DNA of 64,000 bases, taken from Amycolatopsis pittospori. Lineage in GTDB: Bacteria; Actinomycetota; Actinomycetes; Mycobacteriales; Pseudonocardiaceae. The position numbers and the translations under genes are program-made. A model generated the notes under the pieces. It did not search any database, was not told the DNA's origin, and saw only the letters and a program-made list of their open reading frames with translations. Positions 8,977 to 64,000 of the stretch are shown piece by piece (positions within the stretch are counted from its first letter, which is position 1; each line of letters opens with the position of its first letter). The DNA is taken from the NCBI RefSeq assembly GCF_013870525.1, contig NZ_JACBXD010000018.1, positions 1 through 64,000 of the forward strand. The letters are read 5' to 3'.

Positions 8977-10002
8977 TCAGGCGCCCTTGGCGGGCAGCGT
9001 GACGACGCCGAGCCCGGTCAGCACCCCGGCGACGGCGACCGCGGCGACGACCACCCACGCGATCGGATGCCCGAGGTTGAGCGTCCAGTAGGTGCCGACC
9101 CGCCGGTGCACCAGTAGCGCCGGGTCGTTCCGGTTCAGGTAGACCATCCCGGCCGCGTACCAGTAGCGGTCGTCGTCACGTTGTTCGTACCGGGTTTCGG
9201 GGCCTTCGCTCGACGGTGACAGCCGATGTCCGGCGTCACCGTTCCGGACGGCGAAGACGGTCCATGCGAGGAACGCGGTGACGAGTGGGAGGTAGCCGAC
9301 GATCGTGATCGGCACCGTCGTCTCGAAGACGCCCCAGAGCTGCAGCGAAACGATCAGCAGGGTCGCGTTGACACAGCCGGCGGAGATCAGCAGGAGGCTG
9401 ACCACGCCGTGCAGATATTCCCGATACCGCCGGGCCGACGAGGCGGGCCTCGCGGCGTCGATCTCGGGACGGGCCCGAGGGATCGCGACTGCCAGAAGTC
9501 CGAGCATCAAGACGACCAGGACCTGGGCGAAGACCGTCGAAAAGCTCTCGAATTCCCCGAACAGGCCGACGATCGCGGTGACCGCCGCCAGCACCATCGC
9601 GGGTACCAGAAGAATCCACTGTGGACGGACCGGATCGGAACGCAGCGAAGTGTCCGCGACGACCGCTTGCCGCGTTCCGGCGTACCAGTCGCCGTCCCGT
9701 CTCGCCGCGACGATCGACCGGTGCGCCAGGCTCCCGAGCAGCGAATAGACCACCACGAGCGCGACCAGGACGACGTCGTGTGTCGTCCAGCCGAAGAGGA
9801 CGGCCGCGCAGGCGATGAGGGCGGTCGTCACGACACCGCGGTCGTAGCGGCGGCGCACCAGGGCGATGACGGGTTCGCCGACCCGGCCCGCCGGAATCCG
9901 GACGCCGAACGGGAGCGTCGGTCTGGCCAGCGCGGGCGCGGAGCAGAACACGGCGGCGATGAAGCCGACGAGCGCGAGCTGCAGCCAGACCGGAGCGCTC
10001 AC
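8977..10002 (-). CDS. Multi-pass membrane protein with DUF5808-like C-terminus, partner of a GntR regulator
   Basis: 341 residues from a GTG at 10002 that overlaps the stop of the GntR gene (GTGA), which fixes the start. About eight to nine hydrophobic helices. Near the C-terminus is RYWYAAGMVYLNRNDPALLV, a soluble motif resembling DUF5808, followed by one last membrane segment. YtrA-type GntR regulators usually control ABC exporters or membrane proteins in the same operon, so this protein is probably part of a cell-envelope stress response (inference). No transport motif is visible. Confidence 0.78.
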   Translation of the reverse strand: MSAPVWLQLALVGFIAAVFCSAPALARPTLPFGVRIPAGRVGEPVIALVRRRYDRGVVTTALIACAAVLFGWTTHDVVLVALVVVYSLLGSLAHRSIVAARRDGDWYAGTRQAVVADTSLRSDPVRPQWILLVPAMVLAAVTAIVGLFGEFESFSTVFAQVLVVLMLGLLAVAIPRARPEIDAARPASSARRYREYLHGVVSLLLISAGCVNATLLIVSLQLWGVFETTVPITIVGYLPLVTAFLAWTVFAVRNGDAGHRLSPSSEGPETRYEQRDDDRYWYAAGMVYLNRNDPALLVHRRVGTYWTLNLGHPIAWVVVAAVAVAGVLTGLGVVTLPAKGA

Positions 10003-10470: not shown

Positions 10471-10830
10471 ATGGCGAGGCTGGACATGGTCGGTGGCGAG
10501 GTCCGGGTGAGGTTCTCGGCGTGGGAGCGACTGGCCGTATGGCGTGAGGACGTCGTCGTGCCGCCTGCGGCGATCCGGGCCGTCGAGTACGTCGAATCGC
10601 CGGTCGGGCGAGCGCGTGGCGGCCGGGCCGGGGTGCTGGTCAGCGGTGTGCTGAAGGTGGGTTTCTGGGGGCTGGGGACTGGGGTCCGTCAACTGGTGTC
10701 GGTTCGCAGGGGAGTCCCGGCGGTCCGTGTCGAGGTCGATCGAGCCGCCTCGGGGCTGCACTTCGACGAGTTGCTGATCAGTACGCCGAACGCGGTCGAG
10801 GTCGCCGACGCGCTGGCCGTCCGCGTCTAG
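10471..10830 (+). CDS. Hypothetical protein, divergent from the GntR gene
   Basis: 119 residues. The ATG at 10471 is preferred over GTG at 10462 because GGGGAAGG lies 8-9 bases before it. The composition is soluble and strand-rich, with an EVRVRFSAWERL opening and a VPPAAIRAVEYVESP segment; it could be a small PH-like or Bet v1-sized domain but I do not recognise a family. Its stop overlaps the stop of the convergent gene by two bases. Confidence 0.6.
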   Translation: MARLDMVGGEVRVRFSAWERLAVWREDVVVPPAAIRAVEYVESPVGRARGGRAGVLVSGVLKVGFWGLGTGVRQLVSVRRGVPAVRVEVDRAASGLHFDELLISTPNAVEVADALAVRV

Positions 10831-58791: not shown

Positions 58792-58997
58792 GCCAGCGGA
58801 CGCCGTGCCGGTGGAGGCGGAACCGTCTTCGCCAGCACGATCTCCGCCAGCCGGATCGTCGCGAGACCGCGTTTGGTCTCCACGGTGCATTCCGCGTCGT
58901 CGCGGGAGCGCAGGTAGCCGAGTGCGTCGGTGAAGCCGCCCTCGATCCGGTACCGCACGACGACCCTCGTGCCGACCGGGACGTCGGGGAGCGTCAT
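58788..58997 (-). CDS. Small SH3-like domain protein
   Basis: 69 residues. VPVGTRVVVRYRIEGGFTDALGYL, then CTVETKRGLATIRLAEIVLAK and a PPPPARR end. Resembles the SH3-like N-terminal domain of the Rv0428c family of GNATs, here without the acetyltransferase. Coupled by ATGA overlap to the glutaredoxin-like gene. Confidence 0.65.
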   Translation of the reverse strand: MTLPDVPVGTRVVVRYRIEGGFTDALGYLRSRDDAECTVETKRGLATIRLAEIVLAKTVPPPPARRPLA

Positions 58998-59233
58998 CGG
59001 TTCAGGTGCGCGGTGAGCTCGTCGTCGCTCGGCTCGACCAGGTGGGTACCGTCCGGCCAGACGATGGTCGGGATCCGCCGTTCGCCGTTCTGCAGGGCGC
59101 GCACGGTCTCCTCGGCGCCGGAATCCGCCTCGACGTCCAGGTAGTCGTACTCGACACCCTTGGTGTCCAGCAGGGCGCGGCTGCGCTTCACGTCGGGGCA
59201 CCAGCTCGCGCCGTACACGATGAGATCGCTCAT
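58994..59233 (-). CDS. Glutaredoxin-like protein with a single active-site Cys
   Basis: 79 residues. Thioredoxin fold: LIVYGASWCPDVKRSRALL, VEYDYLDVE, RRIPTIVWPDG, HLVEPSDDEL. The active site is CPDV, so a monothiol protein rather than CPYC mycoredoxin. Likely uses mycothiol or another partner (inference). Confidence 0.82.
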   Translation of the reverse strand: MSDLIVYGASWCPDVKRSRALLDTKGVEYDYLDVEADSGAEETVRALQNGERRIPTIVWPDGTHLVEPSDDELTAHLNR

Positions 59234-59236
59234 GGA

Positions 59237-62125
59237 TCACAGCATGCCAGGCCGTGATCCCGCCGCGTGTTCGGCGAGGGCGGAACGGTCGGCGAGGCCG
59301 GTCTTGGTGAGCAGGCTCGCGACGTGCTTCTCGACCGTCCTGGGCGAGATGTGCAGCCGCTGCCCGATGTCCTTGTTCCCCATCCGCTCGGCGAGCAGCA
59401 CCAGGACCTCGTACTCGCGGACGGTGACGCCGGACGCGCGCAGGTCGCCGGGCACCCGGTCGACGCCGGCCCGGCGCTGACGGACGGGTGAGCCGAGCTT
59501 GCGGAGCAGGCTCCGACAAGCACCGGCGACGGCCTGGATGTCCCTGCTGTGGAAGTACTCTTCGGCCTCGTTGAGCCAGCCCGCCGGATCGCCCCAGCCG
59601 TCGGCCGCGGCCGGTTCGGCGATCAGGCGGAGCCCGAGATGACGGGCCAGGGGATAGGGTGCGGACGTCTCCAACGCGGCGGCGACCGCTCGTCCGGCTT
59701 CCGCCGCGTCACCGCGTCTGCCGTGCTCGACGGCGTGCGCGAGCTCCACGAACTGGCGGTTCCAGCGCATTCCGACCACCGCCGACCCGGCCTCCGGGCA
59801 GGCGGCGCCGCCCAGGGTGTCCACGAGTGTCCTCAGACCGTGCTGACCGGCGAGATGGAACCGGCTCGGCCGTTGTTCCTCGAGTTCGGTCACCTGCCCG
59901 AGTTCCCGGCGCGCCCGGTCGAAGTCCTCCTCCAGCAGCGAGCAGAACACCCGCCCGAGCCCGATGCTCAGCACCATCTCCTGGGCGTTCTCGCCGCCGA
60001 TCTCCCGGAAGTCCTCCAGCGCCTGCTCCATCGCCGGGCGATCCGCGCGGTGCCCGGCGGACATCGCCCTGGTCATATGCGCGTACTGCAGTAACGCGGT
60101 CAGCCGGAGCCTGCCGAGTACGGCCAGGTTCTCCTCCAGCAGCGCGTGCGCGGTGTCGAAGTCGCACCGCAGGATCGCGTGCATGGTGCGCACGGAATCG
60201 ACCGCGCAGTGCAGCGTGATCGACCCGGTCCGCTGGGCGTCGGCGCGGGCGAGCAGCAGGGTCTGCTCGTCACCGTTCATCAGCACGCGATGGCCGCCGA
60301 GCCGGACCAGCGCCTGGGTGCGGAGGTGATGCAGCTGGTTGTCCTCGGCGGTCCGCCGCGCGAGTTGCATGTAATGCTCGGATTCGGTGAGGTCCCGCGA
60401 CAGCGCCAGCATGCCGAGCACCTGCAGCGCCTGGCAGACGACGAACGGCTGCCCGGTCTCCTCGGCCACCTTCCACGACTGTCGCGCGAGCCGTTCCGCC
60501 TTCCCAGCACGGCCGGGGACGTCGAGCCAGAGATTCGCTTCGACCGCGTCGACAGCGGCCTGTTGCGCCGGTGAGATCGCCGAACCCAGGGGAGCGCGGG
60601 CGCGTTCGATCTGGCCGAGGCATTCGTCGTGCCGCCCGGCGATGTACGCGGCCCACGCGAGCTGGGTGTGCAGTTTGGCCGCGCGTTCCAGTGTCCCGAT
60701 CTCGCCGAACCCGGCGGAAAGCTCGACGGCTCGGTCGAACTGGCCGATCTGTCCCAGCGCGTACAGCAGGGTCTCCAGCACCTCCGCCCGGTTCCCGGCA
60801 TCGGCACCTGAGAGCAGGTCGACGGCCTTGGTGAGCATCGTGACGGCGGAGTCGGCCGCTCCCGCGTCGAGTGCGCGCCGTCCGGTTTCGGCGAACAGCC
60901 GTCCGGCCGCCTGCTCGTCCAGCGCGGTCAGCCGGAGCGACGCGCCGAGCGCGCACAGGTCGCCGGGCAGGCCCGGATAAAGCTTCTCGACGGCGTCCGC
61001 GGCCTGACGCGCGAGTGCCGCCTTCCGGGCCGGGACCTGTCGCTCCAGCAACGCTTCCGCGGTCAGCGGATGCCTGAAGGCGTACCAGCCCGGGGTCGTT
61101 TCGTCGGTGGTCACCAGGTTCGCCGACACCGCGGCGGTCAGGTGGTTGTGCAGGGTCCGGTCGTTCATCCCGGTGACGGTCTGCACCACCGAGAGTGGAA
61201 AACGGCGGCCGATGATCGCGGCGACCGACAGGAGTTCACCCGCCTGCTCGCCCAGTTGCTCCATCCGGGCGCCGATACTCGTCACCAGTGCGGCGGGAAC
61301 GCGGGCGCGGAGTTCGCCGATCACGCGCCAGCCGTCGCGGCCCTCGACCAGCAGGCCGTCGTTCACCATTCCGTGGAGCAACTCCTCGACGATGAACGGC
61401 AGGCCCGCGCTGTTGCGCCACAACAACTCCGCCGCGGCCGCGGGCAGGTGCTCAGGTTCGGTCTCCAGGCAGGCGGCGGCGAGCTTCCGGGTGTCGGAGA
61501 GGCCGAGGCGGTCGAGTTCGAGGACTGTGCAGCTCATCCGCTGCGCGCCGGAGGTCGCCAGACGGAGCGCGTCGGACGGCTCGTTGCGCAGGGTGCCGAC
61601 GAGCAGGGTGTGCGCCGCGGACAGGTTGTCGACGAGGTATTCGAGGATGAACAGCGTTTCGGCGTCGGCGTCCTGAAGATCGTCGAGGACCAGGAGCGCG
61701 CCGGTGTCGCGGCTGGTGACGGCCAGCAGCCGGTACACGGCCTCGGCGAGGACCATCAGGGAACCGGATTCCCGCGGGCGGTCGCCTTGGCTCCAGTCGG
61801 GGATGAGCTGGGCGAGTACGGGGACGAACGGGTCGAGTTCGGCGGCCCGCGGCGGTCCACCGCCGCGGAAGTGCGAAAGCAGCGCCTGGGTCAACGGCCG
61901 GAAAGGGACCAAAGGGCCGATCGAACTCGCCCTGCCCTGCAGCACCGGGATGTCCGCGGCGACCGCGCGGGACGCGGCTTCGATGGCGAGGCGGGACTTG
62001 CCGATGCCGCCTTCGCCCACGAGAAAGAGCGCGCCGCCGCGACCGGCGATGGCGCGATCGAGAGCTCCGGAGAGCTCGGCCAGTTCGGCGTCGCGGCCGA
62101 TCACCCGCGACGAACGGATCCCCAC
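59237..62125 (-). CDS. LAL-type LuxR family transcriptional regulator
   Basis: 962 residues from a GTG. N-terminal AAA ATPase: Walker A GEGGIGKS (37-44), Walker B LLVLDDLQDAD, a long TPR-like middle, and a C-terminal LuxR helix-turn-helix (VTVREYEVLVLLAERMGNKDIGQ and RTVEKHVASLLTKTGL). Large ATP-binding LuxR regulators activate secondary-metabolite or sugar clusters. It follows the peptide/lanM operon on the same strand after a terminator, so it may govern that locus (inference). Confidence 0.9.
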   Translation of the reverse strand: MGIRSSRVIGRDAELAELSGALDRAIAGRGGALFLVGEGGIGKSRLAIEAASRAVAADIPVLQGRASSIGPLVPFRPLTQALLSHFRGGGPPRAAELDPFVPVLAQLIPDWSQGDRPRESGSLMVLAEAVYRLLAVTSRDTGALLVLDDLQDADAETLFILEYLVDNLSAAHTLLVGTLRNEPSDALRLATSGAQRMSCTVLELDRLGLSDTRKLAAACLETEPEHLPAAAAELLWRNSAGLPFIVEELLHGMVNDGLLVEGRDGWRVIGELRARVPAALVTSIGARMEQLGEQAGELLSVAAIIGRRFPLSVVQTVTGMNDRTLHNHLTAAVSANLVTTDETTPGWYAFRHPLTAEALLERQVPARKAALARQAADAVEKLYPGLPGDLCALGASLRLTALDEQAAGRLFAETGRRALDAGAADSAVTMLTKAVDLLSGADAGNRAEVLETLLYALGQIGQFDRAVELSAGFGEIGTLERAAKLHTQLAWAAYIAGRHDECLGQIERARAPLGSAISPAQQAAVDAVEANLWLDVPGRAGKAERLARQSWKVAEETGQPFVVCQALQVLGMLALSRDLTESEHYMQLARRTAEDNQLHHLRTQALVRLGGHRVLMNGDEQTLLLARADAQRTGSITLHCAVDSVRTMHAILRCDFDTAHALLEENLAVLGRLRLTALLQYAHMTRAMSAGHRADRPAMEQALEDFREIGGENAQEMVLSIGLGRVFCSLLEEDFDRARRELGQVTELEEQRPSRFHLAGQHGLRTLVDTLGGAACPEAGSAVVGMRWNRQFVELAHAVEHGRRGDAAEAGRAVAAALETSAPYPLARHLGLRLIAEPAAADGWGDPAGWLNEAEEYFHSRDIQAVAGACRSLLRKLGSPVRQRRAGVDRVPGDLRASGVTVREYEVLVLLAERMGNKDIGQRLHISPRTVEKHVASLLTKTGLADRSALAEHAAGSRPGML

Positions 62126-62214: not shown

Positions 62215-62409
62215 TCAGATCCAGCCGCCGGTGAAGACGCTGACCACGGACGGCGAGTTGGGGTCGCCGGACAGGGTGGCGAGCGGGTTGGCGCTCAGCC
62301 GGGGCTTGCCGCCCGCCAGAGCGTGGTTGCGCGAACCGACTTCGAGGGCTCGGGGCAGGGTCACGGCGCCGAGCGCGTCTTCGGTGGCGGACAGATCTCT
62401 TTCGTACAT
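62215..62409 (-). CDS. Putative RiPP precursor peptide, cysteine-free
   Basis: 64 residues from ATG 62409, GAGGAG 10 bases upstream; an ATG at 62427 overlaps the lanM stop (ATGA) and would add six residues. The N-terminal half (MYERDLSATEDALGAVTLP) looks like a leader, a double Gly (ALAGG) follows at residues 33-34, and the last 30 residues hold seven Ser/Thr, no Cys, and end VFTGGWI. Its place directly behind lanM and before the terminator is that of a LanM substrate. Lack of Cys would prevent lanthionine rings, so either dehydration only or another role. Confidence 0.55.
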   Translation of the reverse strand: MYERDLSATEDALGAVTLPRALEVGSRNHALAGGKPRLSANPLATLSGDPNSPSVVSVFTGGWI

Positions 62410-62423
62410 TTCGGTGTATCTCC

Positions 62424-64000
62424 TCATACTCGGTTCGCCGGCGGGACGACGGTCGCCGCCGGATGCGGACGGTCGGGACGGAGCAGTAGCGCGGACGGGA
62501 CCCGGTCGCCGAATCCCAGCCGCAGCAGGCTGTACCCGATGCCCGCCAGGCCACTCAGCAGCCCGGGGGCGGGAACCGCGCCGGGGGTCCCGCAGCGCGC
62601 GCCGCGCTGATCGATGGCGGCGAGCAGGTGACCGGTCCGGCGCCGTACCGCGGCGGCGGCGCCAGTGTGCCCGTTCTCCGCCAGCACGCACAACACTTCG
62701 ATGATCCCGGTTTCGCCGTGGCACATACTGAGATCTTTCAGGGGTGCCCCGTCGGACAGTCGTTTCACGGTGCGGTCCAGTTCCAGGGCGTACGCGGGAT
62801 CCGGCAGGTGGGCGGCTTGGCCGAGAGCCGTTCCCGCGAGACCGGCGCACCAGCCGCCGGTGCTTTCCGCCCCGCCGTCCGCCTTTTCGGGCATTTCTTC
62901 GCCGGTCCGGTCGTGTGCCCGCAGGACCCAGTCGATTCCTGACGAACCGCGCGCGAATCCCGTCCCTTGTGGACGTTCGCGGGCGAGCAGCTGTTCGGTG
63001 TAGCGGTCGGCGCGTGCCAGCGAGGTGTCCAGTCCTGTTTGGACATACACCGAACGCATCGAGGCGACGCCGCCCGCTAGTCCGGTCGTGAACCCGGACG
63101 GCGTCTCGGCGGTGGCTTCGGGCATGAGATCGACGGCCTGCTCGATGAGATCTCCGGCGGGAAGCCCGACCAGGGTGCTGAGGCGGGCGATCGTGTACGC
63201 GACACCGCCGAGGCCGAGGAGTCCGCCGCAGCCGGCCGTCGCGGCGAGGTCACTGTCGGCCCGGAGAGTGGCGAAGAGCCCGGGCAAGGGTGTGATCGCG
63301 TATGCGGCCAGGTCGCGGTAGCGCGCGATCCCGGTCAGTTCGGCCAGTTGGGCGAGGAACAGCGCGACACCGCAGTAGCCCTCCCCGAGCCCGGCACCCA
63401 TGGGCAGCACGGTCCAGTAGCGGTCGTCGACGAGTTCGATCCCGAGCCAGTTCGAGCGGCGTTCGTCGGAGAAGGCGTTGGCGACGATGTGGTCGGCGAT
63501 GCCGCAAGCGGTGAGCAGCAGCCGTTCCGCGTCGGGGGCCTGGTTCGGCACCGCCGTCTCCGCGGTCTCGCCGCCGCCGTCGTGTCCGGTGGCCGCCGTG
63601 CTGATGGCGAGCGTCGCCGAGATCAGCCATTCCTGATCGCGCTGGTCGAGGGGGTCCATCTCGGCGACCTTCGCCAGCACCGTGTCCAGCGATGGCCGGT
63701 CCACGACGCCTTCGACGCTCTCGCCGCGGGAATCCAGCAGCGACGTCGATCCGGGGTTCGACGTGAACATCGGGACGTCGCCCTCCCAGAGATCGTCCCG
63801 CTCGTGTGGCACGAGCCGGAGGAGCTTCTCTTCGCCCGCCGAATCCTCTTCGAGCAGGTCGAACGCGCGGTCGCGGTCGGCGGCGTCGCGGAGGAGATCC
63901 GGATGCGTGGTCTCGTCCAGCAGGCGGAAGTAGAAGTTCGTCGGCCGGATGAGGACCCGGATGGGATCTTCCGCGCACCGCCGGAGGTGTTCGGCGAGTT
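62424..64000 (-). CDS. lanM: Class II lanthipeptide synthetase LanM (5' part outside window)
   Basis: About 525 C-terminal residues, open to the window edge; full LanM is about 1000. The dehydratase end is visible (IRPTNFYFRLLDE, HERDDLWEGDVPMF), then the LanC-like cyclase domain with zinc ligands Cys in GGWCAGLAG (codon 62847-62849) and Cys-His in MCHGETG (62718-62723). LanM dehydrates Ser/Thr by phosphorylation-elimination and forms thioether rings. Its stop overlaps the start of the small peptide gene, so both are translated together. Confidence 0.9.
   Translation of the reverse strand, partial: LAEHLRRCAEDPIRVLIRPTNFYFRLLDETTHPDLLRDAADRDRAFDLLEEDSAGEEKLLRLVPHERDDLWEGDVPMFTSNPGSTSLLDSRGESVEGVVDRPSLDTVLAKVAEMDPLDQRDQEWLISATLAISTAATGHDGGGETAETAVPNQAPDAERLLLTACGIADHIVANAFSDERRSNWLGIELVDDRYWTVLPMGAGLGEGYCGVALFLAQLAELTGIARYRDLAAYAITPLPGLFATLRADSDLAATAGCGGLLGLGGVAYTIARLSTLVGLPAGDLIEQAVDLMPEATAETPSGFTTGLAGGVASMRSVYVQTGLDTSLARADRYTEQLLARERPQGTGFARGSSGIDWVLRAHDRTGEEMPEKADGGAESTGGWCAGLAGTALGQAAHLPDPAYALELDRTVKRLSDGAPLKDLSMCHGETGIIEVLCVLAENGHTGAAAAVRRRTGHLLAAIDQRGARCGTPGAVPAPGLLSGLAGIGYSLLRLGFGDRVPSALLLRPDRPHPAATVVPPANRV

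Follow-up and report, generated by a model that had tools for sequence, protein, structure and literature searches.

What does a lanthionine synthetase do with a peptide that has no cysteine? The question is posed by a locus at one end of the DNA analyzed here, positions 1 to 64,000 of contig NZ_JACBXD010000018.1 from Amycolatopsis pittospori (assembly GCF_013870525.1), a stretch of 64,000 nucleotides that we call the window. Here lanM, which encodes a class II lanthipeptide synthetase, precedes a small gene for a cysteine-free peptide, and a gene for a regulator of the LAL type comes after that. We favor a model in which lanM, the small peptide gene or genes and the regulator gene constitute one functional cassette, such that LanM would dehydrate a tail that stays free of rings and the product would work together with the regulator, and we assign this model a probability of about 45%.

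A conserved cysteine-free peptide gene follows lanM

62424..64000, minus strand: 3' part of lanM (LanC-like cyclase domain and the end of the DUF4135 dehydratase domain); the whole gene, 62424-65312, was read past the end of the window.
62420..62425, minus strand: GAGGAG, a Shine-Dalgarno-like sequence for the start of the 64-residue peptide, overlapping the lanM stop (ATGA); listed for 18 of 18 orthologues.
62215..62409, minus strand: cysteine-free, precursor-like peptide of 64 residues with the tail ...LSANPLATLSGDPNSPSVVSVFTGGWI (open reading frame; conservation in close orthologues; dN/dS 0.22).

The LanM of the window is a protein of 962 residues that passes the curated LanM profile TIGR03897 (672 bits against a cut-off of 304) and matches both DUF4135 and LANC_like in Pfam, in agreement with the original prediction of a class II enzyme. 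It is encoded by the single DUF4135 gene of its genome (8.42 Mb, 192 contigs), and no second LanM was found in this assembly, which is 97.29% complete. Thirteen of its relatives were assigned a genus, and the nine at 87-91% identity are all from Amycolatopsis.

The peptide encoded next to it has no cysteine anywhere and carries seven serine or threonine residues among its last 30, as had been read from the open reading frame. The ATGA overlap with lanM that was reported with it is present in the DNA but belongs to a longer, 70-residue reading of the gene: an ATG occupies this place in all 18 orthologues and is in frame in 4 of them, whereas the 64-residue start, which is common to the orthologues, lies 14 bases past the lanM stop and behind the GAGGAG. 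A search of 80 genomes of the genus found a LanM of at least 87% identity in 19 (that of A. pittospori counted), and in all 19 the peptide adjoins lanM and lacks cysteine, so that the cysteine-free core is kept throughout the near genomes. Over the 18 orthologues the proportions of nonsynonymous (pN) and synonymous (pS) differences are 0.032 and 0.135, with dN/dS about 0.22. Judged from this conservation, the 64-residue peptide is a real gene under purifying selection. It has four matches in public protein sets, and no Pfam or NCBIfam family was found for it or for any other precursor scanned.

The peptide had also been read as a double-glycine peptide. The Gly-Gly is present in only 5 of the 18 orthologues, the other 13 having Gly-Ser, and no C39 peptidase or transporter was found near lanM; for these two reasons the site is probably not one of double-glycine cleavage, and we rejected it as such. 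Taken together, the original observation is partly confirmed and its interpretation partly supported. Of the outcomes named in advance as telling against the interpretation, two were examined, a cysteine-rich precursor upstream of lanM and a lack of conservation in related genomes, and neither was encountered.

Cysteine-free cores predominate in the wider LanM clade

With the LanM of the window as query, 140 of 390 genomes of the family gave a match at E-values up to 1e-100, the weakest few being other LanMs (for example those of genomes G008 and G078, which belong to the outgroup). With the LanM of L095, a locus from another genus, matches were obtained in 45 of 397 genomes of the order (1e-100) and in 4 of 394 genomes of the class (1e-150), the genome of the window counting in both figures and genomes of its family being among those sampled. 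The clade set analyzed below comprises 124 loci spread over genera and is a part of all matches (genome G076, for one, lies outside it); nine other LanM loci, two of them with identical LanMs (L044 and L045), serve as the outgroup. In a tree computed by FastTree only and accompanied by long-branch warnings, a branch whose local support is full separates the 124 loci from the rest.

A peptide next to lanM could be read in 119 of the 124 loci and could not in 5. The cysteine-free core of the original prediction extends to 93 of the 119, and the other 26 have cysteine. In this tally the peptides of L089, L109, L142 and some later-added loci were picked by eye, L117 was counted as cysteine-free since its only cysteine lies in the leader, and L088 was moved from the cysteine type to unknown because its short match looked spurious. 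The N-terminal part of the peptides is conserved, the pattern GxRxxxL[ASTM]G occurring in 100 of 117, and examples of cysteine-free tails are TTVSAPG, STVVSNHTHA, PTVVTNGTFAL and PSVVSVFTGGWI. In a group of 12 loci with about 57% LanM identity there are one to three tandem cysteine-free peptides each, 29 in total, with a related leader, and a six-sequence alignment of this and the near group has 16 invariant columns. Ten of these 12 loci (L067-L078) have two or three diverged peptides in tandem between lanM and the regulator gene, an arrangement suggestive of duplication and subsequent change of the core.

The loci with cysteine cores are concentrated in one branch (23 of 26), and 19 of the 26 tails carry the motif TTCC. 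This mostly-TTCC branch includes L112, L113, L118, L131, L132, L137, L139-L141 and L157-L162, among others. Two threonines followed directly by two cysteines are an unusual arrangement for the formation of lanthionine rings.

The two kinds of tail invite an explanation in which the dehydrated residues of cysteine-free peptides are joined without a thiol, by an ether bond or a carbon-carbon bond of the labionin kind connecting the two residues paired in a Ser/Thr-x-x-Ser/Thr pattern; the serine of TTVS would then take the position of the second cysteine in TTCC. Of 110 cysteine-free tails, 99 have the pattern within their final 17 residues, and peptides of both tail types, TTVS and TTCC, have related leaders and come from branches of a single clade. 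However, the pattern is loose and the tails are short, and the correspondence of TTVS with TTCC was read by eye, the seed alignment having placed the two in different columns. We know of no enzyme of the LanM family that makes links of this kind, and we regard the explanation as very unlikely.

A STAND/TPR/LuxR regulator is the most constant partner of lanM

59237..62125, minus strand: LAL regulator of 962 residues, combining a STAND ATPase, a superhelix like that of tetratricopeptide repeats (TPR) and a LuxR helix-turn-helix (PF13191, PF00196, AlphaFold2 model).
61598..62107, minus strand: AAA/STAND NTPase domain, residues 7-176 (PF13191, 8.4e-23).
59501..61033, minus strand: helical-repeat, TPR-like region, about residues 365-875 (DSSP of the model).
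59264..59425, minus strand: LuxR-type helix-turn-helix, residues 901-954 (PF00196, 3.7e-11).

The most constant partner of lanM is a gene absent from the original prediction, that of the LAL regulator. In the window it starts 89 bases past the end of the peptide gene, and lanM, the peptide gene and the regulator gene all lie on the minus strand. The AlphaFold2 model of the regulator (mean predicted local distance difference test 90.5, predicted template modeling score 0.72) contains a long helical superhelix. Its best fold match in the PDB is 6mfv, a STAND protein with a TPR region, at a low TM-score (0.29 by query length), and the ninth, likewise with low TM-scores, is 8bob, an entry on maltose-system regulation whose chain is presumably MalT. 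Sequence evidence for the repeats is weak and consists of matches to kinesin light chain TPR (profile positions 443-601, E-values from 8e-4 to 6e-3).

A homologue of the regulator is found within the retrieved stretch in 123 of the 124 clade loci, and the exception, L058, stops at a contig end; in its genome the regulator is found close to where another contig begins. The regulator gene lies at most 1 kb downstream of lanM and on the same strand in 114 of the 124, at most 1 kb away on the opposite strand in 5 and otherwise in 4, and the small peptide genes are located between lanM and the regulator gene. Pairwise distances between LanMs correlate with those between regulators (r = 0.95 over 120 loci). 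Since this coefficient includes shared ancestry, six genomes with two copies of the locus provide better evidence of pairing: 10 of their 12 copies have their nearest LanM and their nearest regulator in the same group, as read by eye from the lists, the exceptions being L109 and L138. Among the 80 genomes of the genus a LanM of the clade is present in 45 and the regulator, at E-values up to 1e-100, in 46; the additional genome, G006, has no LanM match.

Five LAL regulators that stand without lanM (L174-L178) have their own recurrent neighbors on the opposite strand, a PRK07505 pyridoxal phosphate-dependent acyltransferase-like protein and a 3-hydroxybutyryl-CoA dehydrogenase; these families were scanned in L177, and homologues are present in all five. 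This could be another pair of a maker and a STAND regulator. A CqsA-type signal synthase was considered for these loci and rejected, the protein scoring 518.9 bits for PRK07505, a "hypothetical protein" subfamily, against 80.9 bits for the autoinducer synthase.

The dehydratase is kept and the LanC-like half is altered

62847..62849, minus strand: zinc ligand C822 in the motif WCAG, equivalent to CylM C875 (alignment; ligands from PMC4550811).
62718..62723, minus strand: zinc ligands C864 and H865 in the motif CHG, equivalent to CylM C911 and H912 (alignment; PMC4550811).
62949..62951, minus strand: R788 within GFARG, replacing the histidine that protonates the enolate (CylM H835, NisC H212, LanCL1 H219; alignments).

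We compared the enzyme with CylM, for which the roles of the dehydratase residues and the zinc ligands are taken from the part of PMC4550811 that describes them. All nine dehydratase residues (D252, H254, K274, D347, H349, N352, D364, R506 and T512) are present in the LanM of the window, and so are the three zinc ligands that the original prediction had called intact. The same sites were tallied in 104 clade LanMs, with L058, which is cut off, and the later-added loci left out. The full set of nine is found in 76, and the departures in the other 28 are confined to position 274 (R replaces K in 20 and Q does so in 2), to position 512 (T to S in 10), or to both. The zinc ligands are CCH in 102 of the 104. 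The two LanMs with a changed ligand, HCH in L114 and CCC in L120, are of the cysteine type, and a sequencing error would be worth checking there.

The position of CylM H835 behaves differently. In LanC enzymes this histidine protonates the enolate, according to the relevant passage of PMC9934072. It is a histidine in all 8 outgroup LanMs compared but in only 22 of the 104 clade LanMs, being lost in 82; the enzyme of the window has arginine, and others have arginine, tryptophan, aspartate, phenylalanine, asparagine, glycine or threonine. Because the proton-donating residue is lost in most of the clade, the LanC-like half is, as far as sequence allows one to judge, unlikely to function as a normal ring-closing cyclase. 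We considered whether this loss is coupled to that of the substrate cysteine and rejected the idea. The cysteine-core branch is mostly without the histidine as well, and 17 cysteine-free members keep it, 10 of which belong to the group of 12 loci with about 57% identity. The change is seen with and without core cysteines and is therefore a mark of the clade and no simple consequence of cysteine loss. Cysteine-containing and cysteine-free cores within one clade thus offer a natural experiment on what becomes of the LanC half once the substrate cysteine is lost.

A retained zinc site could be used in another way. The LanC half might add an external small thiol, which in actinobacteria would be mycothiol or free cysteine, to dehydroalanine or dehydrobutyrine, much as the eukaryotic LanCL proteins add glutathione in the account given in part of PMC9934072. 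The ligands are intact in 102 of 104 enzymes although most of the precursors are cysteine-free, and the kept zinc site is our reason for leaving this reading under consideration. The proton-donating histidine used by the LanCL mechanism is, however, the very residue missing from 82 of the 104. A gene that might take part in such chemistry follows the regulator gene of the window:

58994..59233, minus strand: mycoredoxin-like glutaredoxin gene, 3 bases after the regulator gene (PF00462 over the cut-off; TIGR02200 at 70.6 bits, below its cut-off of 89.5).

It is found at the same place in all 18 close loci of the window's lineage. It has no match in the other 106 clade loci, of which 26 extend at least 5 kb beyond lanM and 69 end short of 3.7 kb. 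In the four near loci that were clustered, the window among them, the gene after it, for an aldehyde dehydrogenase, is conserved too, and for that reason the mycoredoxin-like gene may reflect mere synteny among near species. A mycothiol partner as a general feature of the cassette was accordingly rejected, the gene having been seen only in the window's lineage and the comparison being complete for 26 of the other 106 loci. We judge the addition of an external thiol to be unlikely.

Upstream genes do not reveal another precursor

The original prediction had raised the possibility of a second precursor outside the window, and LanM might indeed act on a cysteine-containing precursor encoded elsewhere, with the neighboring peptide as a helper or decoy. 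Precursors can lie far from their LanM in cyanobacteria, as stated in a passage of PMC7268733, and the assembly, at 97.29% completeness in 192 contigs, leaves some room for one. About 2 kb separates lanM from the next large upstream gene, and two small cysteine-containing proteins are encoded in this interval (in the coordinates of L002, at 9704-9976 on the minus strand and on the minus strand ending at 10716). We rejected both as precursors: they have what look by eye like Sec-type signals, and tblastn matched them in only 3 and 1 of 105 loci, their own included. No lanthipeptide-like precursor, transporter or protease was seen in the roughly 2 kb upstream of lanM, and a classical cysteine-rich precursor, which would have told against the prediction, was thus not seen there. 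When the genome was searched with an alignment of near-group leaders, the peptide came back at 1.2e-27 and no other match was better than 0.13; precursors whose leaders are unrelated would escape such a search. As the genome contains a single DUF4135 gene and a single member of this peptide family, the case for a second precursor is weakened. Since, moreover, peptides adjoining lanM are readable in 119 of the 124 clade loci, we consider a distant substrate very improbable.

Upstream of lanM in the 44% group (L047-L057) we noticed a recurrent long protein resembling a tricorn-type protease, GNAT-like proteins and an Sfp-type phosphopantetheinyl transferase, all named by eye.

Export of the product

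A C39 LanT-like gene is present in 6 of the 9 outgroup loci and in none of the 124 clade stretches, 42 of which are at least 18 kb long and 82 shorter; one clade locus, L136, has a match to an ABC exporter without the C39 part. Hydrophobic segments were scored by hydropathy and AxA-like sites by a loose pattern. A hydrophobic segment precedes the tail in 47 of 51 cysteine-free peptides outside the near groups and in 18 of 18 of the cysteine type, compared with 1 of 29 in the 57% group, and an AxA-like site is found in 67 of the 70 peptides that belong neither to that group nor to the window's lineage. From these features Sec-type export appears plausible for most relatives, but not for the peptide of the window.

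These observations bear on a simpler view of the locus. LAL regulators are common cluster regulators, and the product could be a secreted morphogen or antibiotic whose operon is merely expressed under the control of this one. Secretion through Sec would fit the hydrophobic segments and AxA-like sites found in most relatives once the window's lineage and the 57% group are set aside. Yet when 37 loci were clustered, no transporter, immunity gene or protease family proved common to the branches. The widest families were lanM itself (36 loci) and the regulator (31), and the next reached 14. A mere cluster regulator would also not be expected to be as constant as this one (123 of 124). We think this view somewhat unlikely.

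A model for the cassette

How might the cassette work? We envision that LanM recognizes the conserved N-terminal part of the peptide, marked by GxRxxxL[ASTM]G, and phosphorylates and then eliminates serines and threonines in the short C-terminal tail, which in the window would be those around SPSVVSVFT. The tail would be left with dehydroalanine or dehydrobutyrine and, because the peptide is without cysteine, with no internal thioether ring; under this model it would carry no external thiol either. The modified tail would then act together with the STAND/TPR/LuxR regulator encoded alongside, and its simplest role would be that of a ligand of this regulator. The result would be a pheromone-like system of peptide signaling, operating as RRNPP pairs do without being one of them.

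Several findings weigh against this model. Cysteine cores occur in 26 of the 119 readable loci, 23 of them in a single branch of the same clade. The cyclase histidine is mostly changed in that branch as well and is retained by 17 cysteine-free members, as described above. That cysteine-free members keep the zinc site is an argument for some continuing function of the cyclase. Nor is this type of regulator bound to the peptide: of its 58 matches in the genus, 12 stand apart from any lanM, and we opened eight such places and found LanM in none. The correlation between LanM and regulator distances is in part expected from shared ancestry. The hydrophobic, export-like segment is present in 0 of the 18 peptides of the window's lineage, and it is there, for want of this segment, that an exported signal is least supported. 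Finally, as 82 of the 124 stretches are under 18 kb, the absence of a transporter applies to the surroundings of lanM.

A bolder form of the model would make this a widespread mode of actinobacterial signaling, with LanM as the maker of dehydropeptides or thiol adducts and the co-inherited STAND-TPR-LuxR regulator reading the tail inside the cell; we find this doubtful. If it were true, it would reveal a use of LanM without lanthionine together with a peptide pheromone that has a STAND receptor. More broadly, the occurrence of the cassette in many actinobacteria suggests an overlooked unit of modified-peptide signaling. To our knowledge, the ligands of actinobacterial LAL regulators are mostly unknown. 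If ring-free dehydrated peptides do reach STAND regulators, LanM would have a role outside antibiotics and LAL regulators would gain a candidate class of ligands, and both questions could be tested through an operon of three genes.

Comparison with known systems

The cassette resembles class II lanthipeptide systems (LanM; CylM, LicM2) in its TIGR03897 enzyme with DUF4135 and LanC-like parts, its dehydratase residues and zinc ligands, and a small peptide encoded next to lanM. It differs in that the precursors mostly lack cysteine, no C39 LanT was found, the cyclase histidine is mostly lost, a STAND/TPR/LuxR regulator is constantly present, and the window's lineage has no conserved Gly-Gly. A core cysteine, from which a lanthipeptide forms lanthionine or methyllanthionine, is absent from the peptide of the window and from those of 93 of the 119 readable loci.

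A LanM accompanied by cysteine-free peptides is not unheard of, since passages of two papers mention such peptides. In PMC7268733 the LanM-associated peptides of clusters with both LanM and LanKC are said to lack cysteine (citing Zhang et al. 2015), as do some cyanotins, and PMC11251773 describes an extra cysteine-free peptide in clusters that combine type III with type II enzymes. The cases of PMC7268733 share with ours a LanM with cysteine-free precursors but, unlike ours, are two-synthetase clusters or cyanobacterial sets, and no link to a LAL regulator is stated in the passages concerned. We did not recognize the cassette, that is, the clade together with its regulator, in searches of an open library of papers, although the survey by Zhang et al. 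2015 may list some of it. The survey in PMC7268733 discarded open reading frames without cysteine in the estimated core, and for this reason the cassette could have been missed or filed as an orphan LanM.

A functional analogy can be drawn with RRNPP pairs, for which passages of PMC10075063 give a propeptide of 10-100 residues beside the receptor, a TPR receptor of 250-500 residues, and secretion through Sec. The peptide of the window has 64 residues and is encoded 89 bases upstream of the regulator gene, and the regulator has a modeled superhelix, a STAND-TPR fold match at low TM-scores and weak kinesin light chain TPR matches. By contrast, its length of 962 residues lies well outside the stated range, and a hydrophobic segment is found in 0 of 18 peptides of the window's lineage, though in 47 of 51 other cysteine-free peptides. 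Like these pairs, as described there, the cassette places a short propeptide gene beside an intracellular TPR regulator, and most relatives have a basic and then hydrophobic stretch followed by a short C-terminal tail. Unlike them, it has a STAND ATPase in the regulator, a LanM in the unit and, in the window, a peptide without a Sec-like segment. The cassette may thus work like an RRNPP pair but is not a member of that family.

A further parallel is CA_C0082 of the Clostridium agr locus, treated in part of PMC10301443, where a LanM family protein is likewise tied to peptide signaling and not to lantibiotic production. The homologues of CA_C0082 are reported there to lack the zinc ligands and other conserved catalytic residues, whereas the LanMs described here keep both their dehydratase residues and their zinc site.

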